Origin: Hyphococcus sp.
GTDB taxonomy: Bacteria; Pseudomonadota; Alphaproteobacteria; Caulobacterales; Parvularculaceae
Direction of reading: 5' to 3'
DNA length: 52,026 nucleotides
Assembly: GCA_028285645.1 (NCBI GenBank)
Contig: JANQOV010000072.1
Location: forward strand, 1-52,026
This document shows positions 1 through 15,762 of the stretch, in pieces. A program made the translations under genes and the position numbers. A model generated the notes under the pieces. The model was not told where the DNA came from. It ran no database searches and saw only the letters and a list, made by a program, of their open reading frames with translations. Position 1 is the stretch's first letter. Each line of letters opens with the position of its first letter.

Positions 1-152
1 GGAGTTCGAAGGTTCAGAGAAAGAATCAAGCAAACATAATGTAACCCTACAAATTTTGATTTATGGCAAGATTAAAGGAACGGCGCCAGGCGCCGTTCAA
101 AGCCAGTCTGCACATCAAAAAAAGAGCGCCAAGGTCAATCAGGTTGGCGCCA

Positions 153-2117
153 ATGAGCGCCACCATCATGACGGGCGATAGGGAAGACTTCGTTCCGAAG
201 CTAGGGCGTATTCGCGCCAGTGGCGGCAAGGCATCGAAGCGCTATCTCGGCAAGCTTTACGCGAAAATGGAAAAGGCGCGGCCAGGCGTCTTCGCAGCGA
301 AAGGAAAATCGACCTTCACGGGCAAACGGATCGGCCGGGGATCGGCGCATGCCACTGCGCACCGTGCATTCGCCAACTATCGCGCGCGCCGGGTCACCGT
401 GAAAATGCGTTCGGTGCGCCTTGGGGGCAATGGCGGCCCGAAAGCGCAGGCGCATCTTTATTATATCCAGCGGGATGGCACGGATCGCGAGCATGGGCCC
501 GGCAAACTATATGGCCCCGAACATGACGATGTGGACGGCAAGGCGTTTTTGGCGAAAGGCGAGGGCGACCGGCATCAATTCCGGATCATCCTGTCGCCGG
601 AGGACGCCGACGCCTTATCGGACCTCATCGATTATACGCGGGATGTCATGGCGGGCGTTGAAAACGATCTCGACACCAAACTCGATTGGGTAGCGGTCAA
701 TCACTACAATACCGACCATCCGCACACTCATATAATTCTGCGCGGAAAAGCCGATGATGGAAGCGACCTTGTCATCGCGCGCAACTACATCACCAGCGGC
801 ATTCGAAATCGGGCCCAGGAAGTCGCGACGCTGGAACTCGGCCCGCGCCACGATATTGAAATTGCACTGCAGCGCTTCGCCGAAGTCGAAAAAGAGCGCT
901 TCACGCCATTAGACCGGACGCTGATCGAGAAGTCACAGGGCGGTGTTGTAAAATTGGACCGGGCAGCATCACCCTTCGACCGGTTTCAGTTGAAGCTTAT
1001 GCGCGCCCGCTTGCGGCGGCTTGAAGCGATGAACATGGCGGCCCGGACGGACGGTGAATGGACCTTGGCGCCAAACCTTGAAACCGCGCTGCAGGAGATG
1101 GGCAAGCGCGGCGACATCATTCGCTCAATGCATGAAGCGCTCGGAAAAGATGTTTCGCCGGCGCAGGTGCGGGTTTTTGGCAATGGGAACGCGCCGAATA
1201 GACTCCTCGGCCGCGTCGCCGGTTACGGCGCCATTGATGATGGTCATGACAAGCGCTTCATGGCCGTCGACGGCGCTGACGGAAATCAATGGCGCATTGA
1301 AAGCAATTATGAGCCCGGCTGCGCGCCGCCTGTTGGCGCCATTGTCGAGATCGAAAAGTCAGCGCCAGGACCCAAAAAATCGGATCGCACCATCGCCACC
1401 ATCGCCAAGAAATCTAATGGCGTTTATTCAGATGACCTGCATCGTCAATTCGACTCATCAGCGAGCACCGAATATCGCTTTGCTCACAAGAGGCGTCTTG
1501 AAGCGCTGCGCAGGGCCGGGATCGTTTCAAGATCGCAAGACGGTTCATGGCGCATTCCGCAAGATTTTCTGGAGCGCACACAATCCTATGAACGCGCTCG
1601 GGTGCCGGCCCGCATCAGGACACTATCCTGGGTGGCGATTGAGCGACTGCAAGAGGCGAGGGCCGAAACGCTACTGGACGACTTTGTCCAAAGCGACCGG
1701 GAGGCGCCCGGCGTTGATCGCGGGTTCGGCGCCGAAATCAGAAAGGCTGTGACGGCGCGGCGGAATTGGCTTCAAGGTCAGGGTCTGTTGAATACGACCG
1801 ATCAAGCAAAGATCGATCGGGTGCGGTTGCGCGCGTTAGAACGCACTGCCATGAACGATGTTGCAGCCAACTTTGAAGAAAAGCTCGACAAGACGTTCAC
1901 TGCTTCGGCCGAGGGGCAAAAAATCGAAGGCCGCTACAAGCGACCCGTTGATCTGCCGCAGGGCCGTTTCGCCGTCGTCGAGCAGGCGAGGGAATTCACG
2001 TTGGTTCCATGGCGCGAGACGATCGAGAAAAGATGTGGCTTAGAAATCAGTGGCGTCATGCGGCGCGGGCGGGTGTCATGGACTTTTGGGAGGCAGAAAG
2101 GCGGGTTGGAGAGGTAG
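153..2117 (+). CDS. MOBP-type relaxase with DUF3363 C-terminal domain
   Basis: Conjugative relaxase (654 aa from this start) expected to nick the origin of transfer of the element and lead the strand into a recipient. The N-terminal half carries the family signature: an HLYYIQRDG block near residues 101-109 that supplies the candidate nucleophilic tyrosine, and a histidine cluster, NHYNTDHPHTH, near residues 183-193 for metal binding. The rest matches the DUF3363 region seen after this relaxase domain in alphaproteobacterial integrative conjugative elements. The frame is open from an ATG at 63, but the family normally begins shortly before an E/DxFxPxLGRIR motif, so ATG 153 or 168 is more likely; neither has a strong ribosome-binding site. 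The gene looks intact. In related elements traG usually follows directly, but here an 11 kb cargo intervenes and only a traG fragment is found at 13575. Confidence 0.88.
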   Translation: MSATIMTGDREDFVPKLGRIRASGGKASKRYLGKLYAKMEKARPGVFAAKGKSTFTGKRIGRGSAHATAHRAFANYRARRVTVKMRSVRLGGNGGPKAQAHLYYIQRDGTDREHGPGKLYGPEHDDVDGKAFLAKGEGDRHQFRIILSPEDADALSDLIDYTRDVMAGVENDLDTKLDWVAVNHYNTDHPHTHIILRGKADDGSDLVIARNYITSGIRNRAQEVATLELGPRHDIEIALQRFAEVEKERFTPLDRTLIEKSQGGVVKLDRAASPFDRFQLKLMRARLRRLEAMNMAARTDGEWTLAPNLETALQEMGKRGDIIRSMHEALGKDVSPAQVRVFGNGNAPNRLLGRVAGYGAIDDGHDKRFMAVDGADGNQWRIESNYEPGCAPPVGAIVEIEKSAPGPKKSDRTIATIAKKSNGVYSDDLHRQFDSSASTEYRFAHKRRLEALRRAGIVSRSQDGSWRIPQDFLERTQSYERARVPARIRTLSWVAIERLQEARAETLLDDFVQSDREAPGVDRGFGAEIRKAVTARRNWLQGQGLLNTTDQAKIDRVRLRALERTAMNDVAANFEEKLDKTFTASAEGQKIEGRYKRPVDLPQGRFAVVEQAREFTLVPWRETIEKRCGLEISGVMRRGRVSWTFGRQKGGLER

Positions 2118-2363
2118 AGCCTCTGAGCACGCAATTTCGGACATGAGCGCGTATTCATGAGCTTTTGGATTCTATCGCAAAACAGTCGTGAAAAGGCGTT
2201 GCTTCATGTCAAATCTGTAGACGATTTCGATAGCCGGTAGCAGAACGCGAAACTGAGCAATGTAACCTATTGATAAAATTTATAAAAATAGAATTTGAAT
2301 AAAATTTCTTGAATTTGCAGATTTGATATGCGATGGTCGATCCACCGTCCCGGAGTTCGCCTA
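2118..2363. other. Intergenic region between relaxase and cargo
   Basis: Non-coding stretch separating the GC-rich relaxase gene from the A+T-rich cargo. The part from about 2255 to 2325 is strongly AT-rich and is the likely promoter region for the 2364-4093 gene pair. No convincing -35/-10 pair, tRNA or transposase remnant could be identified. The composition change makes this a plausible left edge of the inserted cargo. Confidence 0.35.
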
Positions 2364-3011
2364 ATGCCTGTCGTTACAGAATCAATCGTTAAGCCTCTGT
2401 TAACACCGTTTCACCCTCAAATTCGCTCTGTCTTTGACATGGCGCGCGCGGAGGTCGCGCTGGTCGAAGCATTCCGTCGGGAACGCGGCCTTGCGGAATT
2501 ACGGTATCCACGAACGCTAGCCGATACGATCTACGATGCGATGTCTAACATCGTTGGGGAGGCATTTGATGCTGATGCCGATGTAAAGGTGATCTTCGAG
2601 GCTCAGTCTTTCAAAGTTCTTTTTTATCCACGAGGCCAGCAGCCGATTTTGGCGCGATTTAAAAAGGGTGATGACGAGGGTCGAGGCCAGAATCATCCGA
2701 CGCAAACGGTCATTGCTTTTAATGATCCGACTCAGTGTTTGCCAGGGTTTCCGGCAGATGCCGCCTGCGTCGACATCACTTACACGAATGATGAACTGGG
2801 CTCCGGGATCAATGAAGTCTTGATTGTCCACCGGGATGGCGACCGCGTGTTGTGGAGTTATTCCATCGACGATGCTGAGAGCGGCATTCATGATGACTAC
2901 AATATTGTGGAATTTCCGTCGGTCAGTGAACGGCCAGACGATGATGATGGCGAGGGCTTGGTTACGCCGAAAGCACCGGACGTGGATACCGAGCAATCGA
3001 CTGACGAATAA
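2364..3011 (+). CDS. Hypothetical protein coupled to an ImmA/IrrE regulator
   Basis: A 215-aa protein I do not recognise. Start chosen at ATG 2364 because GGAG lies at normal spacing before it; an upstream in-frame ATG at 2328 has no ribosome-binding site. The protein is probably cytosolic: no signal peptide or membrane segment is visible. The N-terminal 60 residues look helical, the middle is mixed alpha/beta with an FKVLFYPRG strand, and the last 35 residues are very acidic (DDDDGE near the end). Its stop overlaps the start of the XRE-ImmA/IrrE gene by one base (TAATG), so the two are almost certainly co-translated. That coupling suggests a partner or substrate of the metallopeptidase regulator, as in toxin-antitoxin-like or phage-repressor modules. 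This role is inferred from position only. Confidence 0.72.
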   Translation: MPVVTESIVKPLLTPFHPQIRSVFDMARAEVALVEAFRRERGLAELRYPRTLADTIYDAMSNIVGEAFDADADVKVIFEAQSFKVLFYPRGQQPILARFKKGDDEGRGQNHPTQTVIAFNDPTQCLPGFPADAACVDITYTNDELGSGINEVLIVHRDGDRVLWSYSIDDAESGIHDDYNIVEFPSVSERPDDDDGEGLVTPKAPDVDTEQSTDE

Positions 3012-4093
3012 TGGATAGTCGCGGTGATTTTTTGCGTCTCGCGCGTCAGCGGCGAGGCCTTACTCAGACTCAAGCTGCTCCAAAACTTAATTTGAAGCAG
3101 ACAGTTCTATCGCGAATGGAGAATGGACTCGTCGAAGTGACAGACGAGGCCATTGCTAAAGCTTCAGACGCCTATCAGTTCCCGAAAGAATTTTTTCTCC
3201 AGAATGAAACGGTTCTAGGGCCGCCGGTGAGTGTGCACCCGATGTTACGCGGAAATTCGAAGGTTGCCGCCAAAGACGTAGATATGCTGACGGCTGAGTT
3301 GAATATTCGTCTATTCAACATCCGGCGCTTCTTAGCGAATGTGGATTTATCTAGGTCGCTCAACGTCCCTGAACTACATATTGAGATGGAAGATTCGCCG
3401 AGAGCGGTTGCCAAAAAGGTCCGGCTTCACTGGCAGCTCACGCACGGCCCAATAAAAAATCTAACGCGACTGTTGGAAAGGGCTGGAGTCATCGTCGGAG
3501 TGTCTGACTTTGGTGGCGCACAAATCAGCGGAGTTATTTTTAGGCCTCCGTCTTCGCCCCCAATCGTATTATTTAATCCGACTCACCCCGCGGACCGAGT
3601 TCGTTTTACGCTGGCACACGAGCTTGGTCACCTCGTTATGCATCGGTTTCCAACTTCCACAATGGAGGATGAAGCAAACGAATTTGCTAGTGAATTCATG
3701 ATGCCTGCCGAGGAAATGCGGCAAGTATTTCGCGGTCGGAAAGTGACGATACAATATTTGGCGGCGCTAAAGCGTGAATGGCGAATGTCAATGCAGTCAT
3801 TGCTGATGTCCGCAAAACATGTCGGTGCAGTAAATTCAAACCAATATCGATATCTTTTTACACAGTTTAGTAAAAAGGGTTGGAGAACAAGGGAGCCCGC
3901 AGAGTTAGATTTCCCTCATGATCTGCCTGTTGTTCTTCCGGATATCATCAAAGTCCACCGTAACGATCTTGGTTATGATGCAGATGAGCTCTTAAGGCTG
4001 ACGCGTCTTTGCAAAGAGGAATTTGAAGCGCTCTATGGAGCAATTGACGGGAACAACTCACCGTCGCGGCCCACACTTCGCATCGTAACATAA
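3011..4093 (+). CDS. XRE-family HTH and ImmA/IrrE metallopeptidase regulator
   Basis: A 360-aa two-domain regulator. Residues about 6-58 form a Cro/C1-type helix-turn-helix (RRGLTQTQAAPKLNL followed by SRMENG). Residues about 150-260 are an ImmA/IrrE (COG2856) zinc metallopeptidase domain with HELGH at 203-207 and the downstream EDEANEFASEFMMP block at 219-232. Family members cleave a repressor or sense DNA damage and mobile-element induction. The C-terminal 100 residues are not assigned. The gene is coupled to the preceding hypothetical gene by TAATG. It ends only 9 bp before the stop of the convergent nucleotide-metabolism operon, with no room for a terminator. Composition is more A+T-rich than the surrounding chromosome. 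It is a good candidate for control of the facing operon or for half of a toxin-antitoxin-like pair, but no operator was identified. Confidence 0.88.
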   Translation: MDSRGDFLRLARQRRGLTQTQAAPKLNLKQTVLSRMENGLVEVTDEAIAKASDAYQFPKEFFLQNETVLGPPVSVHPMLRGNSKVAAKDVDMLTAELNIRLFNIRRFLANVDLSRSLNVPELHIEMEDSPRAVAKKVRLHWQLTHGPIKNLTRLLERAGVIVGVSDFGGAQISGVIFRPPSSPPIVLFNPTHPADRVRFTLAHELGHLVMHRFPTSTMEDEANEFASEFMMPAEEMRQVFRGRKVTIQYLAALKREWRMSMQSLLMSAKHVGAVNSNQYRYLFTQFSKKGWRTREPAELDFPHDLPVVLPDIIKVHRNDLGYDADELLRLTRLCKEEFEALYGAIDGNNSPSRPTLRIVT

Positions 4094-4102
4094 GTTATGA
4101 TG

Positions 4103-5299
4103 TCATTCGTCGGTGGACTGATCTTGTTTAGTCTGGCCGGATAGGGTTTGCAGATTGTTTAATTTGACTTCGTACTCTTCAGCTTTTTTTGAAAGAGATT
4201 CAATTTGGCTTTCAAGATTGCTTATTTTTTGAGCTAGCTCATTTTGAGTTCGTTCTTGCGCAAGCGCAATCTCATCTAAGCCAAATTGAATTTCTGCCGA
4301 ACCATTAGCGAGTGAATTTAATCCAGTTAAATGTCCCTCGATTGCCGTTTCAGCGGCTGAGAGTCTTGGTTCTAGTACTCTATTTTGAGCTCGAATTTCC
4401 GAATAAAAGGTTCCCCAAAGTGCAGCTACACCGATGACCACAGCCAAAACGCCTAAGAATCCGAGCCCCAGCATATCGTCAGCAGATTTCTTCGCTTTAC
4501 TTGCGGCGTCTCGGGCTTCTTCAGCTTGTCTCTTAGAATCGTAGAACATACTTGGTAGCGAACTCCGAATAGGAATTTCGCAAGGGCCGTTTTGTTTTGA
4601 TGCCTTCTTTAGATACTCATCAATTTCCCAAAAACCGCCTGTGGTGCCTAGCGGTCGTCGTCCGATCGGGGTCTCACCATCTTTGACGGCCGAAGTGGTT
4701 TTTGTAAATTCGAGCCAAATCAAGCCCTCGTTTCGCGGAATCGGATATTCTTTATCCGTCAAATTGTGCAGCGGAATACACAGCTTTCCCCAAAACCCGG
4801 GATCGATTAAGGGGCCCGTGCCTAGCAACAAGCCCCTATGAACATGTTGAATCTGAAGATTAAAGCGCAACGCGATGAATTCCGGTAAGCGGAAATCTAT
4901 ATCGCATTCAACGAACACAATAGAATTCGCTGGAACAATTAGATTATCGTTTTTCCTAGGGTCAAAGATCGTTTCGCGTTCACCGTCTTTATTGTAAAGA
5001 TATGCGACGTTCCCGATTTTGCCTTCGTATGCGGCTTTCTTTACCGGCGATTTTTTCTCATTGCTAAGGTAGAATGGCGAAATTAAGCCAGTTTCTAAAA
5101 CGTAGTCACGTATATGTTCGGCTGAAAGAAGTGATGCGGGAATTTTCGGAAATGGATCGGGGGCGGATTGCCCTTCAGTTTTTGGTTGATATTTCTCAGC
5201 TGCCTTCGCTGCGTCTTCTCTGCTTAATCGCAATTTCCCGATGTAACCACGTAGAGCATCCGCTTCATTGTTATTTGGCAAATTCTCGTTGGTCACCAT
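4103..5299 (-). CDS. Membrane-anchored dCTP deaminase/dUTPase-fold protein
   Basis: A 398-aa protein. Residues about 75-200 match the dCTP deaminase/dUTPase trimeric fold, including LRFNLQIQHVHRGLLL and the core IDPGFWGKL at 165-173 followed by PLHN. Aligned by eye to E. coli Dcd (IDPGWSGCIVLEFYN), the catalytic glutamate position is proline 176, so ordinary dCTP deamination looks unlikely. After this domain come a charged Ala/Lys-rich helix (255-275), one hydrophobic segment at about 277-297 and a long coiled coil (300-385, with LESQIESLSKKAEEYEVKL). The likely topology is a nucleotide-binding head joined to a membrane anchor. Its start lies 29 bp inside the 3' end of the PurA-like gene, so it is the last gene of that operon. 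Inference: a nucleotide sensor or membrane effector rather than a housekeeping enzyme. Confidence 0.82.
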   Translation of the reverse strand: MVTNENLPNNNEADALRGYIGKLRLSREDAAKAAEKYQPKTEGQSAPDPFPKIPASLLSAEHIRDYVLETGLISPFYLSNEKKSPVKKAAYEGKIGNVAYLYNKDGERETIFDPRKNDNLIVPANSIVFVECDIDFRLPEFIALRFNLQIQHVHRGLLLGTGPLIDPGFWGKLCIPLHNLTDKEYPIPRNEGLIWLEFTKTTSAVKDGETPIGRRPLGTTGGFWEIDEYLKKASKQNGPCEIPIRSSLPSMFYDSKRQAEEARDAASKAKKSADDMLGLGFLGVLAVVIGVAALWGTFYSEIRAQNRVLEPRLSAAETAIEGHLTGLNSLANGSAEIQFGLDEIALAQERTQNELAQKISNLESQIESLSKKAEEYEVKLNNLQTLSGQTKQDQSTDE

Positions 5300-6341
5300 T
5301 TTTGGCCTTTTTTGCTTCTATTACGTCAAATTCCGAAAAACCAAACCAGTCTATTGACTGCCCAATATCTGCTTCAGTTTTCGAGACAAATATTGAGATA
5401 TTGCTTGTGGCGTCTCCCAAATCAGTTGGATCGCCAATGTAGTCGAGATGGTTCAAAACAACCCTCGTGGGTTTGTTGGCCGCCAACGCGCGGCGAACTA
5501 GGCTTGCATCGAATTTGCCTACGCGGCGAAGTTTATTCGTAACCGTTGTGTATTCGCGCAAATCGAGTTTCTTGCCGGTTGTCGTGGCGACATCGTCCCA
5601 GGTGATTTCGTTCAATAGAGGACCTGAGTCTCCTGCGACACGGATTGGGAAGGAGCGCAACACTATTGTCACGTCATCAACGTCTAACGGGCTTATTCCC
5701 GCTTCGGCTAATGCTGCAGAAGCAGTTACAGATCGCGATGTTGCCTTTGGCCAGTACCCTCCGTCGAGCAGAGAAAGGCCAAAGCCCTGAGTGCCTTCGA
5801 TAATAACGCGGTGCTTCCTTGTTAGTTTTGATCGAAGCAACTCTGTCGTGTCGCAAACAAATTCAGATAGTGGCTCACAATGCTCGGCATCCGGTGAAGT
5901 CAACCGTAAGTTCTCTGCGCCACGAGCTGCCGCCGCCAATATTGCTGCACCGACACCGCTGCCGGTTGAGCCAATCGTTGAAACCAGTCCTGCGGTTCGT
6001 TCCCATCGTTTATGTGCGTCCGTGATAATGCGCGCATATTTGCTTACATATATACGATCTCTTGGGTACGCGAGCTCGTCAATTTCTTTAAGAAGAAGCG
6101 CAAAGTCGATGTATGAACCTGCCGGAAATACAACATCTACGTTGCGGTCAATGCACCCTGCGGGCAATTGCCGTAAAGCGAATTTCTTGCGGTTTCGGTC
6201 ATATCCCGTGTGACCTGAATTCGTTCCACCAACACGAACTACAGTGACAGGTTGGCCTTCAAATTTTCTTGCCAACTCAAGCGCAACTTTGCCTTTTCCT
6301 TCAGAGCCAAACTGACCGCCAACTATCACCGAGACCGGCAT
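5271..6341 (-). CDS. PurZ-like short adenylosuccinate synthetase homologue
   Basis: A 356-aa member of the adenylosuccinate synthetase family, close in length to archaeal PurA and phage PurZ and much shorter than bacterial PurA (about 430 aa). The GTP/IMP P-loop reads GGQFGSEGKGK at residues 8-18: the residue equal to E. coli Asp13 is Ser13. The downstream GGTNSGHT keeps the catalytic His (His44, E. coli His41). IGSTGSGVG, EGTQGFGLSL and RSFPIRVAG match further family motifs. From published work on phage PurZ as I recall it, loss of this Asp makes room for the 2-amino group of dGMP. The enzyme may therefore act on a guanine nucleotide rather than IMP, but this is inferred. AAGGGA precedes ATG at good spacing. 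It lies 20 bp after the fusion gene and overlaps the DCD-fold gene by 29 bp, making a tight operon. Confidence 0.87.
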   Translation of the reverse strand: MPVSVIVGGQFGSEGKGKVALELARKFEGQPVTVVRVGGTNSGHTGYDRNRKKFALRQLPAGCIDRNVDVVFPAGSYIDFALLLKEIDELAYPRDRIYVSKYARIITDAHKRWERTAGLVSTIGSTGSGVGAAILAAAARGAENLRLTSPDAEHCEPLSEFVCDTTELLRSKLTRKHRVIIEGTQGFGLSLLDGGYWPKATSRSVTASAALAEAGISPLDVDDVTIVLRSFPIRVAGDSGPLLNEITWDDVATTTGKKLDLREYTTVTNKLRRVGKFDASLVRRALAANKPTRVVLNHLDYIGDPTDLGDATSNISIFVSKTEADIGQSIDWFGFSEFDVIEAKKAKNGDQREFAK

Positions 6342-6361
6342 TATTTTTCCCTTTTTGTCGT

Positions 6362-8245
6362 TTACAGAAGAGTGGTGAGATTTTTCTCAAGGTCGGCTAA
6401 ACTGCCTTCGTTTTTGAGAGTCGCCTTTGCCAAGCTCTTCAAATTTATTACCTTCCTTTCGACTTCTGATTCGGATGCTGACTCAAAATCGCGATCGTTT
6501 ATCGAGCTATCCTTGCCAAGCCGATTGGAAAACCGCGCTTTCCGTAACTCCACCCCCGCCTCAATAAACAAGTGAGTGAAATTGGAGCCAAACTTCTCAA
6601 CTAGGAAGGCATGGTCTTCCGGGAATCTTAGACCATCCACCACGATTCTGTCACGTCCTTCAACTCTCCTGATTGTCCGTTCGGCGAGTTCCCGCTGTCG
6701 ACCAGACTTGTTAATCTCGCCCCCCAGCTGCTGGCGATTCGATCTGTTTACTTCTTGGCCTCGTTCTTCGAGAATTTCGTCGATAACGAGACTAAATCGC
6801 GTGTAGGCAAATCCTTTTTGCTCAAGAAATCTCGATGCGGTTGTCTTACCTGCTGCAATCGGGCCGCTGATTCCAATGACAACGGGGCGGTCAGTTGCGG
6901 TCATTTCCGGTATTATCAGAGGAGCTTCGTGCTCAGTTCCAAGTGCCTCAGAGCGCCCAGCTAAATGGAAAACACCGACTAAAGCAGATGTGATTGCATC
7001 CAATTCGTCATGAGTAACTTTATCGTCGTCGAACGTGCCAGAAATTCCGAAGTCTTGAAGTCCAATCCTCAGCCATTCAACGCCACGCCCCTTTCTGGGA
7101 ATGCGCATAATGTCTTGCGCGGCGCCGGGATAGCTTTCAATGACCGGTATTCCAAGCTTGCGAAATTTTTCCGCCAGCGAAATTCCGCGTGCGGTTAACT
7201 TTTGCATACTTGGAATTAGACTGGGATATACGTTTACGCCTCTGCGCTTCAGTTCTCGCTCGCATTCGCGCATGATGCCATATTTCTCACGGCTAGGGTC
7301 GTCGTCAAACACAGACAGGCGGCCATAGGGTAAGCAAAGCGGAGAATCGATTGAGACTAGAGTTGGCTCTGCATCAACGGTAGCCGTTATGAGGTCGTCG
7401 TCTGTAGATAAAAGGCGTGTGGCCGCTACGGTGCCATCCAATACGCACCAGCCAGTTGGTCGTTTTTCTGATCCGGTCAAGTCAATTCCAACTATGCGAG
7501 ATTGAGTAGCTGGGCTGTTGCCGAAAACGCTCGCGTAAGTTGCCGCTTTGCGTCCGTTGAGTCTGCGGCGTTTTCGAAAAGTGGGAAGTTCTTTCCAATA
7601 CTTGGGTGCCGACCACTCTTCGAACTGAATGGTTTTACTAAACAGATCGGATTGAAAACCAAGGCGTTTAATCGTCTTGTCGAAAATTGCTCCCATCGCT
7701 GCAATATCGACCCGATTATAAAAAATCAGTTCATTTAGAGCTTCTTTGTCGCCTCGAAGAAATCGGTGCCACAGCAACACCGCTGCCGCTCCATCAACAC
7801 TCTCTATTTCCTCGCGGAATGAAATTCCCAATTGTCTTTCTATTGACTTCTGACCGCCCTTAAGCCCGGCGCGTCGACATAAATACATTAAATCTATGTG
7901 AACGGGAGGGAGTTCAATTTCTTCGAACTCTTTCTTGAGAAATTTATTGTCAAAACGAATTCCATTGAATGTAATCATCGCTTCGGCATTTGAGGCAGCC
8001 GAAAGCAACGCATCCGGATTGTCGCCCTTAATAAGCGTTTGTGCTTTCCCGTCGAACGACCACCCTACTATCGTAATTTCATCATAGAAATGACTGAGGC
8101 CAGTGGTTTCAATGTCCAAGAAAAGTACTTTTTCGGGATGAGCGTGGCAAATGCTAAGCTCTTGCTGCAGTTTAGCCGGTACTACGTAGGGTCGGCGGTC
8201 ACTCCCCCTTCTATTCACTAAGTTCTTGCTCAGTGCCTTCGTCAT
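6362..8245 (-). CDS. RNase H-like exonuclease, DUF429 and nucleotide kinase fusion
   Basis: First gene of the three-gene operon, 627 aa, with three recognisable domains. Residues about 38-200 are a DnaQ/RNase H-like 3'-5' exonuclease of the YprB type: LFLDIETTGL (41-50), FNGIRFD (93-99), HIDLMYLCR (116-124) and YNRVD (176-180) keep the acidic metal ligands. Residues about 250-430 are a DUF429 domain (GIDLTGS, VSIDSPL, SYPGAAQDIMRIPRKGRG and HDELDAITSALV), also RNase H-fold and of unknown substrate. Residues about 454-610 are a P-loop kinase resembling dephospho-CoA/deoxynucleoside monophosphate kinases (GISGPIAAGKTT at 458-469, VVDGLRFPED at 535-544). Start is the first ATG, with only a weak ribosome-binding site. 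I know of no described protein with this domain order. Together with the PurA-like partner it points to processing or supply of an unusual nucleotide. Confidence 0.85.
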   Translation of the reverse strand: MTKALSKNLVNRRGSDRRPYVVPAKLQQELSICHAHPEKVLFLDIETTGLSHFYDEITIVGWSFDGKAQTLIKGDNPDALLSAASNAEAMITFNGIRFDNKFLKKEFEEIELPPVHIDLMYLCRRAGLKGGQKSIERQLGISFREEIESVDGAAAVLLWHRFLRGDKEALNELIFYNRVDIAAMGAIFDKTIKRLGFQSDLFSKTIQFEEWSAPKYWKELPTFRKRRRLNGRKAATYASVFGNSPATQSRIVGIDLTGSEKRPTGWCVLDGTVAATRLLSTDDDLITATVDAEPTLVSIDSPLCLPYGRLSVFDDDPSREKYGIMRECERELKRRGVNVYPSLIPSMQKLTARGISLAEKFRKLGIPVIESYPGAAQDIMRIPRKGRGVEWLRIGLQDFGISGTFDDDKVTHDELDAITSALVGVFHLAGRSEALGTEHEAPLIIPEMTATDRPVVIGISGPIAAGKTTASRFLEQKGFAYTRFSLVIDEILEERGQEVNRSNRQQLGGEINKSGRQRELAERTIRRVEGRDRIVVDGLRFPEDHAFLVEKFGSNFTHLFIEAGVELRKARFSNRLGKDSSINDRDFESASESEVERKVINLKSLAKATLKNEGSLADLEKNLTTLL

Positions 8246-8662
8246 TTAGAAATCAGCCGCCAAGTCAACTAGAATTTTTTGTCTATTCAGCTTCACGCAA
8301 AAGAGAATCATAACGACTACATTCAGTCGATTCCAGCCGGGCGTGGCATCTTTGAAAAAATTCCGCTTGCGAGCGGACAAATGTCTTTTAGAGCTAGGGT
8401 TTTTTGTTACTAAGAACCTATTGTGGAGAAGTCGGATAGGTTTCATTTCCACTTTGTGTTGTTCGATATAGATTCACGCCTTTTCATTATTGAGACAGCT
8501 TCGACAACAATAAAGTGTTACTGGAGCGTTCTAGCGTGTTTGCGGTTGCAGCAAAATTGAATTGCTCTCTGCGTGATGAGCATGTTCAGAGCGTTCAATT
8601 GCAGGCATTACCTAAATCTAGGCGCTCACCAAGACATATGTGTAGTCGACCTAACCTTTTCG
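8246..8662. other. Intergenic region upstream of the nucleotide operon
   Basis: About 417 bp between two minus-strand genes. The segment nearest 8245 is AT-rich and presumably holds the promoter of the exonuclease-DUF429-kinase operon, but I could not pick a convincing -35/-10 pair. A 68-codon open frame at 8246-8452 (minus) has no family resemblance and no clear ribosome-binding site and is not called. No tRNA, repeat or terminator is evident. Confidence 0.3.
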
Positions 8663-9172
8663 CTAAGCCGTGGCTCGGTGTCGAACGGACGGGCGACTAT
8701 GGACCGCACGACTCGCCGCAAGCGCTGCGGCAGCTTCTTGTTTCTGTTGAACTTTCGCCGATTTTGTTGGGACAAAGTCAGACGACGTAAGTCCTTGCCG
8801 GTTGCAGTAATTTCGCACAGCATTCAGCAAACTTTCGTCCAGCACCCTCAACTCGTGCTGATGTAAGAGGCCCGCTTCCAAATACCGACCCCAAATTTGG
8901 TGCAGAAATTCGATAGGCGTAACGTCATTTGACAATCTATCTTTATATTTCAATGGCGCGCGCTTCGGTAACGCGTTCGGCTTTGTTTGTTCTTCGCGCC
9001 ATTCAGGATCGTTTACAAATTCATTCATGACCGATCGATATGCGATGCGGCATCGTTCCTCGATGGCGCTCTTGCTCATATCGGCAGGCAATTCTTTTTG
9101 CGCAAATCGCCTGATTGCCGTCAAAAGAATACTTTGCTCTTTGCTTGGCTTGCGTGCTTTTTTTTTGTTCAC
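8663..9172 (-). CDS. Hypothetical basic helical protein
   Basis: A 169-aa protein of unknown function. The GTG start at 9172 is supported by AAAGGAGT eight bases upstream, a stronger ribosome-binding site than most neighbours have. The protein begins with a lysine-rich segment, is mostly charged helix (EERCRIAYRSVMNEF, TPIEFLHQIWGRYLEAGLL, DESLLNAVRNYCNRQGL) and ends in an Ala/Arg-rich basic tail. There is no signal peptide or membrane segment. Its basic ends would suit nucleic-acid binding, but no recognised DNA-binding motif is present. It lies on the same strand as the nucleotide operon, 417 bp upstream of it, so co-regulation is possible but a single transcript is uncertain. Confidence 0.68.
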   Translation of the reverse strand: MNKKKARKPSKEQSILLTAIRRFAQKELPADMSKSAIEERCRIAYRSVMNEFVNDPEWREEQTKPNALPKRAPLKYKDRLSNDVTPIEFLHQIWGRYLEAGLLHQHELRVLDESLLNAVRNYCNRQGLTSSDFVPTKSAKVQQKQEAAAALAASRAVHSRPSVRHRATA

Positions 9173-9508
9173 TACCCACTCCTTTGGCCGCCTTTCGCGG
9201 GCCCATCATTGGTTTGAAGAGTAAAGAAAAACGCTGAATTCTTGATCGCATTTTGGTCATCGCGGCGGCCGCGGATTTTTTGATCTGATTTTGATCATTG
9301 TGCACTTATTTGGCACAAGGTCAAGGAAATTCGTCAATTTGACCATTGACAGAATGCCTGTAACTGACTGATATCCAATGAGTATTTGAGCCACATTTGT
9401 CGTGGGAAATCTTGCCGCACGCTTCTGATTTGTCATCTGCCAAAATGACGAATCGGAAGCCATCAAAAAAATAATAGAGGGGGTTAAGCGCCAACAGCGC
9501 GGCGATGT
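9173..9508. other. Divergent intergenic region
   Basis: About 336 bp between the divergent genes starting at 9172 (minus) and 9509 (plus). It is AT-rich and includes closely spaced TTTTGATC-type repeats near 9278-9298 and a possible plus-strand promoter at 9346-9374. A 69-codon minus-strand frame here (9257-9466) has no supporting features. Nothing else is recognisable. Confidence 0.3.
9346..9374 (+). promoter_or_regulatory. Candidate promoter for the 9509 gene
   Basis: TTGACA at 9346-9351 is followed after 17 bp by TGATAT at 9369-9374. The -35 matches the consensus exactly and the spacing is ideal, but the -10 is a poor match. It would drive the plus-strand gene at 9509 with a leader of roughly 130 nt. 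Confidence 0.28.
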
Positions 9509-10522
9509 ATGACCATAATTGACAAGCTAAAGCAAGCGCTGGGATTTAGAGACGTTAAATCCCTTCGCGACGACATGCTCGATTTCTACGATAGTCGTGA
9601 ATACCCGCAAGCACTCGCAAAGACGTTGCCAGTCGGCGAGGCGCATGAGGGGCACATGATTCGAAGGAACCTCATTTACGATTGGACCGGCTTCAGAGGC
9701 GATCGAAACAAGCCAACTGTCGCGCCACGGGAACCCCGCGGAAGATTGTTTCTGAAGCTTTACCTTCTCACACGCGAGGACCGTTGTGCGGATCGCGCCA
9801 TCTACAATGAGTACGTTCAGGAGCTGTCGGGCAAAAATTTCGTGGCGGAGCGCGCCGATTTTGTGAGTATTCTTCTTGGCGCTGACGCTTGGTCCAAGGA
9901 TGTTTGGCATACGCATAAGGATCGTTGGTGTGGTGTTTACAGAATAATTCGATGGCATTCCAAGGAACACTGCTTGGTCGCCGACCCGATTGAATTGTCT
10001 GACGACAGCCGGACACGCATCATCGCGAAGAGCCAAATCTTTGAGCCCGCTGGGCGAAGCCAAATTGAAATGACGGGGCAGGCTGTGCCGTTGGCGTCCG
10101 CTCTCAATATCTCCCTGGTCACCGCCGACACGCCAAAGGCCCCTGCGCGGGTTCGGCATTTTCTGTTTGAGTCCGAAACCGCCGAACCTGATTTTTGGAT
10201 TGGAACTGCTGCGCGGACGTCGTTCTTCCACAACGAGCCGATCGCCAATCTTTGTCTGCTTGTTCCAATTCTTGAAGATAACGCCGTAGCCGTCTACCGA
10301 CAATGGGCTAAAAACGGGGCGGACTGGACCAGTATTCCACCCCCATTGAAGGGCAAAATCGGCCCGCTTGCCGACGATGCCGAAACCAAGCTCTTTTCGG
10401 CGGTCCTGTCGGAGAACGTCATTAACTCTGACGAGAGTCGATCGACTATCTCGACCGCATCGCCGGCGCTTATTCCCGTCGATCAAGCTCGAGTCAATGA
10501 TTTGCGTAAGGAGCATCGTTGA
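9509..10522 (+). CDS. Hypothetical protein, island cargo
   Basis: A 337-aa protein that I cannot assign to a family. The opposite strand is also open for most of this length, but the plus frame is preferred: it reads as a normal soluble protein (MTIIDKLKQALGFRDVKSL at the start, several aromatic-rich segments such as DVWHTHKDRWCGVYRIIRWH), while the minus translation is unusually Arg/Ser-rich. The only GAGGGGG lies about 25 bases upstream of the ATG, so the start is uncertain. No signal peptide or membrane segment is visible. The gene converges on the amidinotransferase gene with only 5 bp between the stops, so it may belong functionally to the sulfotransferase-amidinotransferase pair. No function can be given. 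Confidence 0.65.
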   Translation: MTIIDKLKQALGFRDVKSLRDDMLDFYDSREYPQALAKTLPVGEAHEGHMIRRNLIYDWTGFRGDRNKPTVAPREPRGRLFLKLYLLTREDRCADRAIYNEYVQELSGKNFVAERADFVSILLGADAWSKDVWHTHKDRWCGVYRIIRWHSKEHCLVADPIELSDDSRTRIIAKSQIFEPAGRSQIEMTGQAVPLASALNISLVTADTPKAPARVRHFLFESETAEPDFWIGTAARTSFFHNEPIANLCLLVPILEDNAVAVYRQWAKNGADWTSIPPPLKGKIGPLADDAETKLFSAVLSENVINSDESRSTISTASPALIPVDQARVNDLRKEHR

Positions 10523-10527
10523 GGCCC

Positions 10528-11511
10528 TTAACGCGAGTCGAATTCTCCTTCGATGTCAGGCGCTCGTGACACGACGCCCGTCGCACAAGCCATGCCGCCT
10601 TCCGCCGCTGCATATTCGCTAATGTCTGTTTCGTACACCTCAACGCTTTCACTTTCAAACGCCGCACGTGTTCGATCGCAACCTGACGGCATCACAATTT
10701 TCCTTGGGCCGATAGTTACGAAGTTCATTGCAAGGCGTTCGGTAATCTCCTCGACAGGCTCGAACTCAAGCGTTTTTATGCCATGCATTTTCAGAACTCC
10801 CCGCAGCTTATTGTTGCACGCGTCCGCCCTGACCGCCGCGAGGTCTCGGTCCAGAAAATTTACCGCTCCAAGCAAATGCTGCACCTGCGACGGCAAATCT
10901 ATCGTCATGATGGAAACGCCAAAAGGGCGAAATAAGTTCGTTAGTTGATACGCCGCGTCGATGTTAGTGCGCGTACCGACGCCAAGAAGGCCGACACCGG
11001 GCCGCAGCCACAATAAGTCAGCGCCTTCGAACGTTGCCTTTTTGACGACAGTTCCGAATATGGGAATGGCTAAGTCGGCTAGCGCCACCTGACAATGAAT
11101 CTCTTCAATCGCTCGTTGACGGGCGCCCATCCGCGCCATGACGGCGCCGAATTGGGTCGCATTGAATAGATCGCGTTGAAATAGAAAATTTGGACAACGG
11201 TCAAAAGGCCCACGTGCGTACACGACGCTAACCTCAACACCCAATTCCCCGTACAATGCTTTCAAGCCCTCGAATTGTGTCCGAAGTTCGTTTTCATTCA
11301 CAGGCCGGCGCATCAGATAAGCGGCGGCATTTTCGCGCGGAAAATCGATGGACGACGGATCCGCCAAAGTCACATGCCGTAACGGCATCCACTCTGATGC
11401 AACGCCAATCTGCGTCTTTCCGAACGCGTTTGCTGCAATTTCCGCGACAGAGGACTTTAGGCGCGGCTGATATCCCGCGCCGCCGAATGAACTTCTGAAT
11501 TCATACGTCAT
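10528..11511 (-). CDS. Amidinotransferase / arginine deiminase superfamily enzyme
   Basis: A 327-aa guanidino-group modifying enzyme of the arginine deiminase/dimethylarginine dimethylaminohydrolase/amidinotransferase fold. The visible landmarks are FQRDLF (about 111-116), FEGADLLWL (about 161-169, the acidic substrate-binding motif), a GTRTN turn, HLLGAVNFLD with the catalytic His (about 212), and GGMACATG near the C-terminus with the catalytic Cys (about 309). The Cys-His-Glu/Asp set therefore looks complete. ATG 11511 is chosen because AGAGGA sits 8 nt upstream; an in-frame TTG at 11517 is the alternative. The start overlaps the stop of the sulfotransferase gene by 11 nt, so translation is coupled. 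Whether it hydrolyses arginine derivatives or transfers an amidino group cannot be decided from sequence alone. Confidence 0.85.
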   Translation of the reverse strand: MTYEFRSSFGGAGYQPRLKSSVAEIAANAFGKTQIGVASEWMPLRHVTLADPSSIDFPRENAAAYLMRRPVNENELRTQFEGLKALYGELGVEVSVVYARGPFDRCPNFLFQRDLFNATQFGAVMARMGARQRAIEEIHCQVALADLAIPIFGTVVKKATFEGADLLWLRPGVGLLGVGTRTNIDAAYQLTNLFRPFGVSIMTIDLPSQVQHLLGAVNFLDRDLAAVRADACNNKLRGVLKMHGIKTLEFEPVEEITERLAMNFVTIGPRKIVMPSGCDRTRAAFESESVEVYETDISEYAAAEGGMACATGVVSRAPDIEGEFDSR

Positions 11512-12805
11512 AGTCAAATTCCTCTGCTAGTTCTCGGCATTTTCCGTCTTGGAGTCGCGGCGATATAAATTTCTCGCGATTGCGCCAGCGGTCCGGTGCG
11601 GGAATGGCGCCGCCCGGACCGCTATTTGCTACTGCTCGGTCGATCCAGGGCAATTCGGCAATGCTGTCATCGCCGATCGCGAACCGGCTCAACGCCGCGA
11701 GGCTCTTTCGCCGCTTGTGCGGATCAACAATGTCTTCAAACCGGAAGCGCTCATATCCGTCGCAAAACTCCTTCATATAGTTGATCGCCGCCCAATGAGC
11801 CGCGCTCCACTGGAAACCGGCTACGTCATAAACGTCGGCCATAGTGAATGACGGCCACAACGGCGGCATGTCGAATTTCCAATGTTTGAGGTCCAATACA
11901 CGGTCCTGATCGGGATAGAACACTTTCAAATCGTTGACCGCCGAATAATGAAAACCATCAGATACCCATCCGTCGACAAGGCCGTTGATGCTGGCGCCGG
12001 GATGGCGTGTCAGATGAATCACTTTGATCTCGGCATTGGGGAAAAGCGCTCGAATAAAGCCAGCGCGGTATACATTCGCCGGCGTCTTCAGGAGCAGCCA
12101 CTTGCGATTCAAATCATCGACCCGAGGCGGCTTGGACGGAGCCAAGGTAATAAACGGCGGTTCTTCGACAATCACATCCAGCTGTGATGCGAAATGGTCA
12201 GGCTCCAGGCCTGTCAACTCCCTCATCGCGTCCTTGTCGATATCGTAAAGAAAAGGATTGAAATCAGGATATTGTTCTGTCAGTCGCGCCAACAGAAATG
12301 TATTCACGCTTTTCCAGTCGTCGCGCGGAATTCGGCTGGCGTAACAGTCGTCGAGCGCATGAACAAAGCAAGCTGCAAACCGTTCCGGGTCCAGCCGTAC
12401 AGACGTATTGGCGTCTCGCGTCTTCCGGAATAGCTGGCGCATGTAATTTGCTCCGCTGACGGCCAGCCACATCACAGATTCATCACCGTTTTTGAACTTT
12501 ACCGGGTCTGTAATCAGGTCGCGCGCAATTTCGCGCTGCAATGTCAAATACCCATCTGTTTCGCGGAGAAAGCTTAGATCGTCCGCTGTCAACCGATCAT
12601 CGGCCATATCCGGTGGCGTCATCGAAACTTTTTTGAGGGCGACATTATTTTCACCCTGAAGACTGTAGATTTCAGGATGCTGTTTCAAGAATTCTGTCAG
12701 AACCGACGAACCGCTGCGGCTTGCGCAGGTCACCAACAGCAGCTTTTTTACTTTTGGCGTCCAATCCTCGCCGATGAACTTCATATAATCGGGCACCCGG
12801 TCCAT
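11501..12805 (-). CDS. PAPS-dependent sulfotransferase family protein
   Basis: A cytosolic sulfotransferase of 434 aa from this start. The 5'-phosphosulfate loop TCASRSGSSVLTEFL lies near residues 26-40, and the 3'-phosphate-binding motif HLTRHPGASINGL near 264-276. The intervening region is longer than in small-molecule sulfotransferases and resembles the large 'sulfotransferase family' proteins of bacteria. The frame opens at 12829, but ATG 12805 is preceded by GGAGAG at good spacing and is preferred. It is the first gene of a two-gene operon with the amidinotransferase. The combination suggests sulfation and guanidino modification of the same small molecule, peptide or glycan. No partner scaffold enzyme (NRPS, PKS) is present in the window, so the substrate is unknown. 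Confidence 0.87.
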   Translation of the reverse strand: MDRVPDYMKFIGEDWTPKVKKLLLVTCASRSGSSVLTEFLKQHPEIYSLQGENNVALKKVSMTPPDMADDRLTADDLSFLRETDGYLTLQREIARDLITDPVKFKNGDESVMWLAVSGANYMRQLFRKTRDANTSVRLDPERFAACFVHALDDCYASRIPRDDWKSVNTFLLARLTEQYPDFNPFLYDIDKDAMRELTGLEPDHFASQLDVIVEEPPFITLAPSKPPRVDDLNRKWLLLKTPANVYRAGFIRALFPNAEIKVIHLTRHPGASINGLVDGWVSDGFHYSAVNDLKVFYPDQDRVLDLKHWKFDMPPLWPSFTMADVYDVAGFQWSAAHWAAINYMKEFCDGYERFRFEDIVDPHKRRKSLAALSRFAIGDDSIAELPWIDRAVANSGPGGAIPAPDRWRNREKFISPRLQDGKCRELAEEFDYDV

Positions 12806-12875
12806 GTTTCTCTCCATCCACGCCATCATCGCGCATCTTGGCGTTTCCCCCAGGTGATCAAAAAATAATCAAATC

Positions 12876-12905
12876 TAGCTAACGCCGAAAAATATGTCCC
12901 GTCAA
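12876..12905 (-). promoter_or_regulatory. Candidate promoter of the sulfotransferase operon
   Basis: On the minus strand, TTGACG (12905-12900) is followed after 18 bp by TAGCTA (12881-12876), within a strongly AT-rich block upstream of the sulfotransferase start. The leader would be about 65 nt. The -10 is a weak match, so this is only a suggestion. Confidence 0.28.
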
Positions 12906-13320
12906 GCTGAAATCTAATATTTCTTTTTATTTTACAATGTTTTTTTGTATATTAGCATTCGCTCACGGCTCCACAAATTCGATATAGGAAGATCAAAAAG
13001 TCATCTACAGCTCGCAAGATCTTAGCATTTGGCTGACTGAGGCGGCCAGAAAACAAGCCTTTATACAAATTAACTTCCAAGAATTTCGCATTTGCGGCGT
13101 CGTGTCGAAACGGTAGAATAGTTTTCAATTATTTGAATCGGAGGACAGCGGGGCCTTCTTCTGGTTTTTGCCTTTGCCTGAATGCTGAGGTCTTTGTTGG
13201 TTTGGCTATTGTGCGCTCGGAGAAAATTCGGAAGTCCGCCCAGCGTGCGATTCCTAACCGGTTTTGGTGAGTACACCTCTGCTCTGCAGGGCTAATGCGG
13301 CTGGCCCATCCGCTCTCGGG
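12906..13320. other. Non-coding region between cargo and traG remnant
   Basis: Over 400 bp with no supportable gene. The first part (to about 12960) is AT-rich with T- and A-runs, and the rest returns to intermediate composition. Short open frames on the minus strand lack ribosome-binding sites and family resemblance. With the tandem repeat that follows, the region may contain transfer-origin or regulatory functions of the conjugative element, but no known oriT sequence was recognised. Confidence 0.3.
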
Positions 13321-13480
13321 TGCTCTCACCCGCTGTGAGGCGCTCTCAGGCGCTATCACCCTCGTTTAGATGCTCTCGACCGCTCTCCGCCGCATATAGG
13401 CGCCGACACCCACACATGGGCGCAAACACCCACAAACAGGCTCAAACACCCACAAACAGGCGCTCTTGCCCGCTAACAAG
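13321..13480. repeat. Degenerate 20-bp tandem repeat, about eight units
   Basis: The sequence falls into consecutive 20-bp units beginning at 13321, 13341, 13361, 13381, 13401, 13421, 13441 and 13461. The best-conserved pair is CGCAAACACCCACAAACAGG (13421) and CTCAAACACCCACAAACAGG (13441), differing at only two positions. Outer units are more diverged and centre on GCTCTCACCCGCT-like text. There are no spacers, so this is not a CRISPR array. The periodicity, about two helical turns, resembles iterons or multiple binding sites for a DNA-bending protein. It lies about 95 bp upstream of the traG fragment. Confidence 0.75.
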
Positions 13481-13516
13481 GCCCCATAACCACTAGTGAC
13501 AAAATTTGGTTCGTGA

Positions 13517-13555
13517 GCCGATGATCGGCGGCGTTGGAGAACAATTCCGTTCTCC
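13517..13555. promoter_or_regulatory. Two inverted repeats upstream of traG fragment
   Basis: GCCGAT-G-ATCGGC occupies 13517-13529, and GGAGAAC-6 nt-GTTCTCC occupies 13536-13555. Both lie between the 20-bp repeats and the traG start at 13575. They could be operators or part of a transfer origin. There is no T-run, so they are not terminators of the usual kind. Confidence 0.4.
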
Positions 13556-13574
13556 GTGAGATCGTTCGAGCCCC

Positions 13575-14192
13575 ATGACGCCAACCAAAATTCTCATCGG
13601 CCAGGTTTTCATTGTCGCCATGATCATTGCGGCGGCGATGTGGGTTGCGACCGGCTATGTAGCTGGCGTCTTTCACTATGATGCAGCGCTGGGCGCGCCC
13701 TGGTTCATCGCTCTCGGCCGCCCAATCTATTATCCCTGGCGGCTCTTTGAATGGTGGTACGCATACGAGCCTTATGCGCCGGCCGTTTTCCTCCGCGGCG
13801 GCGCCATTGCGGCGTCAGGCGGATTTATCGGCGCTGGCGTTGCTATCGCCGGATCCGTCTGGCGCGCGCGACAAAAAAAGAATGTCACGACTTACGGTTC
13901 GGCGCGATGGGCTGAAGTCCGGGATGTCGTCAAGGCAAAGCTCTTAAAGTCCCAAGGCGTCTTTTTAGGCGCATGGAACAATCGCTATTTGCGCCACGAC
14001 GGTCCCGAGCATGTAATGGCTTTCGCCCCGACCCGGTCCGGGAAGGGCGTCGGGCTTGTCATCCCGACGCTTCTTTCCTGGACCGGAAGCGCCGTCATTC
14101 ACGACATTAAGGGCGAAAAATTCCTTGCGAGCGATCGGGAATTCAGGCGTGCAAGGAAAAGGCTTCAAAGTTCATCGGCAAGTAGGGAGTAG
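13575..14192 (+). pseudogene. traG: TraG/VirD4 coupling protein, 5' fragment
   Basis: Type IV coupling proteins (usually above 600 aa) are membrane ATPases that deliver the relaxosome to the mating channel. Only the N-terminus is present. Two membrane segments are seen (residues about 8-32 and 72-96), then TTYGSARWA (105-112) and the Walker A region APTRSGKGVGLVIPT (151-165), followed by VIHDIKGE. The match ends near residue 181 (about position 14118). The remaining 24 residues of the frame are unrelated, Arg/Ser-rich read-through, and Walker B and the C-terminal ATPase domain are missing. The AlpA-like and integrase genes begin 120 bp later. The gene has therefore been truncated by deletion or by insertion of an integrase module and cannot support transfer. 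This is one reason to regard the element as decayed. Confidence 0.85.
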
Positions 14193-14238
14193 GGCTCTTG
14201 GCTGTAATTCAACTTTCGATGGGCCTATCAGCACGGCG

Positions 14239-14448
14239 ATGATTGAACCCATCCTTTTCACCGAGAAACAGGCGCGTGAGTATTTGGGCGACGTAAACCC
14301 TTGGAAGATCTGCCCGCCTATCAAGGTTGGCAAGCTGAACCGCTGGGCGCGCTGGGCGCTTGACGCCGCAGTCCAGGAACGTGCAGGTTTAGTTGGTGGG
14401 AAGGATACGAAGGAAGACGCCTATGCCGCGTGGAGGAATTCGCATTGA
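14239..14448 (+). CDS. Small AlpA/excisionase-like HTH protein
   Basis: A 69-aa protein starting at ATG 14239. The N-terminus, LFTEKQAREYLG, resembles the first helix-turn-helix of AlpA/MerR-type excisionases, which recognise the ends of integrative elements and direct the integrase to excision. The rest is short and charged (NRWARWALDAAVQER). It overlaps the integrase start by 26 bp, the usual arrangement for an excisionase-integrase pair. No good ribosome-binding site is seen. The assignment rests on the short motif, size and position rather than on a full domain match. Confidence 0.6.
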   Translation: MIEPILFTEKQAREYLGDVNPWKICPPIKVGKLNRWARWALDAAVQERAGLVGGKDTKEDAYAAWRNSH

Positions 14449-15454: not shown

Positions 15455-15528
15455 CAACTTTTGCTGTAAACGGCCTGTAAACCGTCTGCACATTTCAACC
15501 TTTTCCACAGCGTAAGTCATTGATTTAA

Positions 15529-15605: not shown

Positions 15606-15762
15606 GCGCGCCGTCTCGTCAGGCGAAGCGGCGGAAGGCGCGGTTTAACCCCATGGCGCGAGACAATGCAAGCGCCCCAGCGGTTCTGTTGGACGCGTAG
15701 CGCAAATTCCGCTTAATTCACCCCTTTCCGGCGGGCCGGGCGGCAAAGTTCTTGAGGGTTTT

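Follow-up and report, generated by a model that had tools for sequence, protein, structure and literature searches.

A PurZ-type synthetase in a conserved three-gene operon on mobile DNA of Alphaproteobacteria, a probable defence system

We analysed a 52,026-nucleotide stretch of DNA from Hyphococcus sp. (GenBank assembly GCA_028285645.1, contig JANQOV010000072.1, listed as C31 among the 163 contigs of the genome), referred to here as the window, and found that three of its minus-strand genes are one conserved, horizontally spread operon. In the order of transcription, these genes encode EXK, a fusion of an exonuclease, a DUF429 domain and a P-loop kinase-like domain; a PurZ-like synthetase; and a membrane protein with a domain resembling dCTP deaminase (the DCD-like protein). 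Judging from gene content, conservation and genomic context, the trio is probably a defence system. PurZ has so far been described from phages, in which it serves the synthesis of DNA containing 2-aminoadenine (Z); the bacterial clade described here, fixed in an operon on mobile DNA, suggests that the same chemistry is used against phages, or that phages took PurZ from such systems. The initial annotation of this DNA had placed five genes in two convergent units, and all five are present (Table 1).

Scanning genome contigs with the window PurZ yielded 13 alphaproteobacterial loci (L004 to L016), and tblastn located both EXK and the DCD-like protein at all 13, with order and strand as in the window. 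Likewise, an alignment of the DCD-like protein, used as an independent bait, gave non-self matches only at L035 (among 398 genomes of the phylum) and L076 (among 398 genomes of the order), both of which hold EXK, PurZ and DCD in that order. Co-occurrence of the three genes, which the initial annotation had named as a check, was therefore seen at 13/13 PurZ-baited and 2/2 DCD-baited loci, mostly in different surroundings. The L035 trio is distant from that of the window (46% identity for PurZ, 46% for EXK and 33% for DCD), and 77 other genomes of its class gave no match. Full-length relatives of EXK at 12 loci are 56 to 62% identical to it; a search of 385 class genomes baited with EXK, in which the three top candidates from each genome were scored, yielded no further full-length copy and, in one genome, a lone exonuclease domain. 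No EXK was detected in 61 further genomes from the same family, 27 of which belong to the genus of the window and some of which are incomplete drafts; this absence points to horizontal gain.

The arrangement of the trio is compact. More specifically, EXK and PurZ are separated by -22 to +14 bases in 12/12 loci with intact frames, and the DCD-like gene of the window overlaps the end of PurZ by 29 bases. Departures from this layout comprise L010, where the DCD gene lies ~300 bases further on, L011, which has two DCD genes, and L016, where the EXK and PurZ frames are broken. Pairwise distances agreed across the three proteins (Mantel r of 0.81, 0.48 and 0.50; p of 0.0001, 0.0034 and 0.0043, respectively) over 13 rows, i.e., the window and 12 loci, leaving out L016 and representing L011 by its second DCD copy. 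A scan for promoters and terminators gave a result no better than that for shuffled sequences. At L035, a small kinase-like gene (9248-9853; weak match to a dTMP kinase model, 0.009) follows the DCD gene and is a possible fourth member.

The active site bears out the earlier assignment of the second gene as PurZ-like, as it carries the serine and the loop of PurZ instead of the aspartate of PurA. Ser13 of the window protein (codon 6303-6305) replaces the PurA aspartate and is invariant in 14/14 rows. In a 34-row tree, this serine and an RV[AG]xxSG loop occurred together in 24/24 bacterial rows, which cover the trio (type A) and two sister architectures (types B and C, described below), and in 7 phage rows, whereas aspartate without the loop was found in 2 PurA rows and in a homologue from a deazapurine cluster. 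Compared with the PurA rows, the insertion follows the RV that faces the sugar C2'. For the PurZ of phage S-2L, PMC8342488 describes S23 and V241 as lining the dGMP pocket and RV as facing C2' of the sugar. The window PurZ and 12 alphaproteobacterial rows form a bacterial clade of their own (support 100/99), and the rows of types A and B group with phage PurZ0 at a moderate support of 84/81, a placement for which the tree program warns of long branches. The best Protein Data Bank (PDB) match of the window PurZ was 7vf6, named 'PurA-like adenylosuccinate synthetase'.

Relatives of PurZ were present in 210/50,697 phage records, the best being an Arthrobacter-phage enzyme with 42% identity. The serine and the loop are thus shared with PurZ and PurZ0 of the Z phages, but the window type differs in residing in bacterial islands and in having a kinase-exonuclease fusion and a membrane protein as operon partners. 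Moreover, DatZ, MazZ and DpoZ, which belong to the pathway of Z phages, had no match among the scanned neighbours, namely eight proteins of positions 63-10522 (the relaxase in Pfam only) and four of 10531-15451 (Pfam only), in line with the earlier statement that these genes are not in the window and that full 2-aminoadenine synthesis is not supported. The initial annotation had also considered a phage-derived modification cassette. EXK had no match in the 50,697 phage records, where the DCD-like protein was not searched, which makes such a cassette unlikely; in selective pattern scans of viral contigs, EXK gave one weak match to its exonuclease domain (30%) and the DCD-like protein gave none. 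On these results we rejected the phage-derived cassette.

All three domains of EXK retain conserved motifs. In the exonuclease domain, D44, E46, D99, Y176 and D180, which we take to be the DEDDy motif, are invariant in 13/13 rows, as are D255, D300, D413, E414 and D416 of the DUF429 domain. Similarly, G461-P-x-A-A-G-K-T-T469, presumably the Walker A motif, and D537-G-L-R540 of the P-loop domain are invariant (x aside) in 13/13 rows. The P-loop domain resembles deoxynucleoside monophosphate (dNMP) kinases (phrog_139, 1e-6), AdkA-like proteins (4.5e-5) and the corresponding part of the anti-phage dCTP deaminase (PDLC02373, 1e-8; NF041025, 0.01). Dyadobacter chenhuakuii, which belongs to another phylum, encodes on a plasmid a DUF429 protein that stands alone and shares 56% identity with the domain of EXK (L023:5974-6594); the gene for it directly follows one matching the NCBIfam anti-phage model DS2_3 (435 bits, cut-off 630; annotated as a diadenylate cyclase).

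The third protein had been described as a membrane-anchored protein of the DCD fold, and a weak DCD profile match together with one predicted transmembrane (TM) helix agrees with this description. Its score against TIGR02274 was 21.7 bits, far under the cut-off of 92.8 for a dCTP deaminase. Across 16 rows, RFNLxIxxVxRGLLxGTGPLxDPGxxG is invariant, the RGLLxGTGPL part being new relative to Dcd. The protein also weakly matches PDB 8y1w, named dCTP deaminase (6e-5), with DPGxxG and N kept. When the alignment is anchored on DPGxxG-N, RSSLAR and the Glu of E. coli Dcd correspond to QIQHVH in the window and to an invariant Pro, respectively, so that neither the Glu nor the RSSxxR of dCTP deaminases is found, and the RSS shift was also seen in the HMMER alignment to 8y1w. 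We take the Glu of E. coli Dcd and the Asp of Dut to be catalytic. With RSSLAR and Glu both replaced, we rejected the reading that the protein is an active deaminase like E. coli Dcd. Alignment by hhalign gave probabilities of 1% for E. coli Dcd, with the RSS/Glu region left unaligned, and 7% for Dut. Judged by these motifs, the domain looks like a kept pocket without deaminase chemistry of the E. coli type, and relative to the dCTP deaminase/dUTPase fold the protein adds the TM helix, the likely coiled coil and RGLLxGTGPL. A Rhizobium beringeri plasmid (L024:8016-8789) encodes a DCD-like protein that is shorter and has hydrophobic segments, recognised by eye, towards its C-terminus; its gene follows an AAA ATPase and UvrD helicase pair and PurZ is not in view.

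Conservation near defence genes in different surroundings had been named as a further check, and restriction-modification (R-M) or UvrD/GajB-like genes were found near 7/13 trio loci. A complete type I R-M system adjoins L009, and homology indicates the same for L008 and L012; L013 has genes for type I methylase and restriction subunits beside it; methylases adjoin L010 and L015; and a GajB-like helicase adjoins L006. Also adjoining 7/13 trios is a family of ~240 aa proteins with an N-terminal QNRYxGDIGDY-like motif (L005:10726-11439, L013:12169-12903, L014:12092-12838 and four more loci), whose gene in some cases overlaps the DCD gene. The L005 member had no match in Pfam, NCBIfam, PHROG or PADLOC and no homologue among the open reading frames (ORFs) of the window.

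PurZ also occurs in two sister architectures on plasmids, several of which are typed conjugative. PurZ matched 41 plasmid records, of which twelve were examined. Type B, on two S. medicae plasmids, comprises an HD phosphohydrolase, PurZ and a DCD-like protein; beside one such operon lies a ThiF/E1-like protein (L017:10612-11943; a weak match, below the Pfam cut-off). Type C, on eight replicons of Rhizobium, Agrobacterium, Sinorhizobium and Methylobacterium, has an N-terminal kinase fused to PurZ, followed by DUF7002, and both an HD gene and a 450-aa gene lie nearby in 8/8 (domain families assigned on one member, L018). Four more type C loci from the 385 class genomes have DUF7002 (4/4), and two of the four have the HD and 450-aa genes; the other two (L084:6644-10275 and L085:1783-5143) carry an IrrE-like gene or its homologue upstream instead of HD. 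In L084, which adjoins type I R-M homologues, the IrrE-like protein is fused to a Macro domain, and L085 has a homologue of it. This arrangement suggests that DUF7002 could be an ADP-ribosyltransferase with the Macro domain as antidote; a structure search gave no credible match for it, and a literature search found no paper on it. By annotation, type C neighbours include AbiJ-NTD4 in Kim5 (L018), AbiE and SIR2 in CB3171 (L022), and AAA and UvrD in A. fabrum (L020), and the other sister loci had no obvious defence neighbour.

The HD gene of types B and C, whose best PDB match was Atu1052, was rejected as DatZ, since it matched phrog_318 (5'-dNMP phosphatases) at 2e-62 versus 4e-7 for phrog_7076. 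Homologues of R. leguminosarum that overlap an annotated folE (7 plasmid records) were left out of the PurZ family; one of these, L019, keeps the Asp, lacks the loop and lies in a deazapurine-type cluster. This cluster (L019:7375-15721) comprises folE, purB, queC, queE, IMPDH, nitrile hydratase and 6-carboxytetrahydropterin synthase and resembles a plasmid-borne 7-deazapurine pathway. A PurZ match on a Natronorubrum plasmid was an ordinary PurA.

For the action of the trio, we tentatively propose a specific model of abortive defence, in which PurZ and the kinase would make a nucleotide signal and the DCD-like membrane protein would sense it. Release of dNMPs, including dGMP, would be due either to the DEDDy exonuclease/DUF429 part or to degradation of host DNA driven by the phage. 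PurZ would then join aspartate and dGMP to N6-succino-2-amino-dAMP (dSMP), which host enzymes could convert to dZMP, the Z monophosphate, and the kinase domain, with host nucleoside diphosphate kinase (NDK), would carry the product to the di- or triphosphate. The DCD-like domain, which has probably ceased to be a dCTP deaminase, would bind this unusual purine deoxynucleotide, and the TM helix and coiled coil may damage or reshape the membrane, so that the infected cell stops. More tentatively still, the three architectures might represent an immune family with a core of PurZ and dNMP kinase, which would make a 2-aminopurine-type deoxynucleotide from infection-released dGMP and have exchangeable outputs: a DCD-fold membrane sensor-effector in types A and B, or in type C a DUF7002 protein, perhaps an ADP-ribosyltransferase that in some genomes is paired with a Macro-domain protein. 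If true, phage Z-DNA synthesis and PurZ immunity would be two branches of one enzyme family. The operon also points to a well-defined molecule, a dGMP-derived purine deoxynucleotide, that can be tested as a candidate immune signal or poison.

That an unusual deoxynucleotide can act as an immune signal is exemplified by Kongming (KomA, KomB and KomC), for which PMC12948488 describes dITP, made from a dNMP with the help of a dNMP kinase. The trio would share only the proposed logic (a dNMP converted to an unusual deoxynucleotide that is phosphorylated and sensed by an effector) and differs in encoding the kinase in its operon and in that its output would be a membrane protein. Pfam detected neither a deaminase nor a SIR2 domain among the three proteins, and the PADLOC copy used, of 2023, may lack Kongming models. 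With the anti-phage dCTP deaminase (AvcD/Dcd; dCTPase in PADLOC), the trio shares the P-loop domain related to the EXK kinase part, but no deaminase domain was found in EXK and the DCD-like protein is without the E. coli Dcd motifs. Neither a CD-NTase nor another cyclase, as in CBASS and other cyclic-nucleotide systems, was detected in the trio (Pfam/PADLOC). Its gene content matches no system in PADLOC of 2023, although nucleotide-based defence as such is already known. No title or abstract opening on a bacterial PurZ operon was found in the open-access literature, which is not proof.

Several observations weigh against defence by the proposed signal. PDB 8y1w is likewise without the Glu (Met at the aligned place) but keeps the RSS, and loss of the Glu alone is therefore not decisive. 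An hhalign alignment with a probability of only 7% places D166 of the DCD-like protein at LIDSDYQG of E. coli Dut; since the Asp of this dUTPase-like motif is kept, hydrolysis is possible. As to the product, compounds other than dSMP and dZMP are conceivable. The window PurZ scored 240.7 bits against NF038379, below the curated cut-off of 300, and PurA models were likewise below their own cut-offs; in view of its PurZ-type active site, we therefore assign it to the PurZ clade and not to the named model. The distances of the DCD-like protein track those of the other two proteins only moderately. PADLOC matches of EXK were partial only (dCTPase, 1e-8; candidate PDC-S44, 1.6e-6), and no PADLOC family matched PurZ or the DCD-like protein. 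As for context, L008, L009 and L012 have their R-M flank in common and are therefore not fully independent, and 6/13 loci have no individually identified defence gene, although one of these, L011, has an S-subunit homologue. At a threshold of 1e-10, the 95 flank proteins scanned (the flanks hold 137 ORFs with a length of 150 aa or more) matched 245 PADLOC families, versus 34 for the 90 control proteins scanned (out of 107 ORFs in 11 stretches). Since a single R-M protein matches many models, these counts are inflated and do not represent independent events; the control, moreover, is not zero and includes a type III methylase.

The chief rival to signalling is poisoning, which we consider unlikely, and in which PurZ and the kinase would make dZTP (or dSTP) while nucleases and hydrolases lower the normal purine deoxynucleoside triphosphates (dNTPs), so that phage (or all) DNA synthesis takes in 2-aminoadenine and fails. 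The DCD-like protein would then be a membrane-tethered dNTP pyrophosphatase like DutZ of PurZ0 phages, with which D166 and the proximity of the trio PurZ to PurZ0 are consistent; phages Wayne, Archimedes and Rasovi, too, have a dUTPase-annotated gene near PurZ. Two reports add that the S-2L datZ-mazZ-purZ triad introduces Z into the DNA of E. coli and has a toxic effect (PMC8342488), and that a Dut-fold enzyme of PurZ0 phages hydrolyses dATP and dGTP (PMC12884076). However, the phosphate-binding RSS motif is lost and a TM anchor would be needless for an enzyme acting on the nucleotide pool, a search of the 13 type A loci, which did not cover MazZ, found no homologue of the HD gene, and the HD gene of types B and C is closest to phosphatases rather than DatZ. 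Alternatively, the cassette could modify or protect the DNA of the carrying mobile element against restriction, as Z does for phages, and Z partially prevents restriction cleavage according to PMC12884076. The window trio does ride an element with relaxase and integrase genes, as the sister types ride plasmids, but we regard this explanation as quite improbable: the unit has no polymerase or HD dATPase domain, the host copies integrated DNA, the membrane protein would have no place, and several loci carry restriction systems, which stand on the opposite side.

Mobile location would also fit a toxin-antitoxin-like or plasmid-maintenance module with no dedicated anti-phage role, for which DUF7002 and the IrrE-Macro protein of the sister architecture may provide a toxin/antitoxin pair; several enzymes with intact catalytic motifs, together with defence neighbours, better fit a sensor-effector cascade, and we hold such a module to be improbable. 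We find it equally improbable that the operon serves metabolism, salvaging deoxyguanylate or damaged purine nucleotides with no connection to phages. Those catalytic domains that were recognised do belong to nucleic-acid or nucleotide enzymes, and DUF429, an RNase H-like family, co-occurs elsewhere with NUDIX (PMC3985635), but rarity, absence from close relatives, defence-gene neighbours and the membrane anchor speak against salvage. That the five genes are unrelated cargo is most improbable and, for the trio, is refuted by its constant order at 15/15 loci (13 PurZ-baited, 2 DCD-baited); it does hold for the two plus-strand genes versus the trio.

These two genes, encoding a hypothetical protein and an XRE-ImmA protein, are a module distinct from the trio, and the single five-gene system proposed in the initial annotation was thus rejected. 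Among eight window proteins compared with the 13 trio loci by tblastn, the hypothetical protein was found at none and the XRE-ImmA protein at one (L006, 28% identity), where the ImmA gene likewise faces the trio and its partner is unrelated to the hypothetical protein of the window. In contrast, relatives of the hypothetical protein in 3/72,556 plasmid records all have an XRE- or ImmA-annotated gene directly after them, which upholds co-occurrence of the ImmA pair, and the trio is not in view beside them; 142 class genomes held no other copy. Absence of the hypothetical protein from trio loci and the pairing of its plasmid copies with XRE/ImmA therefore indicate a separate two-gene module. The XRE-ImmA protein is of the RmrA type of RosmerTA according to PADLOC, but its partner differs from RmrT, matching no PADLOC model at E 0.1.

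Table 1. Features of the window that concern the operon, the left module and the carrying element
Feature	Position	Strand	Evidence or remark
EXK, operon gene 1, 627 aa, exonuclease-DUF429-P-loop kinase-like fusion	6362-8245	-	
RNase_H_2 domain of EXK, DEDDy-type exonuclease	7676-8125	-	3e-29
DUF429 domain of EXK, RNase H-like fold	6905-7498	-	0.0015, below cut-off; conserved 13/13 rows
P-loop deoxynucleotide-kinase-like domain of EXK	6365-6898	-	PRK08356 5e-12, below cut-off
PurZ-like synthetase, operon gene 2, 356 aa	5271-6341	-	NF038379 1.9e-71; phrog_1211 2e-71
DCD-like membrane protein, operon gene 3, 398 aa	4103-5299	-	TIGR02274 1.3e-4
DCD/dUTPase-like domain, ~residues 51-205	4685-5149	-	
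Predicted single TM helix, residues 272-302	4394-4486	-	hydropathy peak in 15/16 rows
Likely C-terminal coiled coil	4130-4372	-	weak matches to coiled-coil proteins; poorly conserved in alignment
Hypothetical protein, separate left module	2364-3011	+	longest frame from 2328; phrog_15813 5.5e-7
XRE + ImmA/IrrE protein, separate left module	3011-4093	+	Pfam Peptidase_M78 8.7e-20; PADLOC RmrA 2.5e-55
DUF3363 relaxase, carrying element	63-2117	+	Pfam
Type IV secretion system (T4SS) coupling-protein fragment	13575-14192		
Tyrosine integrase beside tRNA-Arg	14393-15454	+	
tRNA-Arg	15529-15605		

The relaxase, the T4SS coupling-protein fragment and the integrase next to tRNA-Arg support the earlier view that the trio lies in an integrated element, and homologues of this integrase adjoin trio locus L004 and sister locus L083. 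The A+T-rich block seen previously was confirmed, with a G+C content of 45-50% at 2-10 kb versus 52-61% in the rest of the window, except at 12-13 kb (49%). No candidate att repeat of at least 20 bases was found in 1-16500, and the start of the contig may fall inside the element. Two genes adjoining the trio, at 8663-9172 (minus strand) and 9509-10522 (plus strand), had no match in Pfam, PADLOC, PHROG or NCBIfam at E 0.1. Further on, an overlapping pair of arginine-deiminase-family and sulfotransferase genes (10528-12829, minus strand) apparently belongs to the same element.

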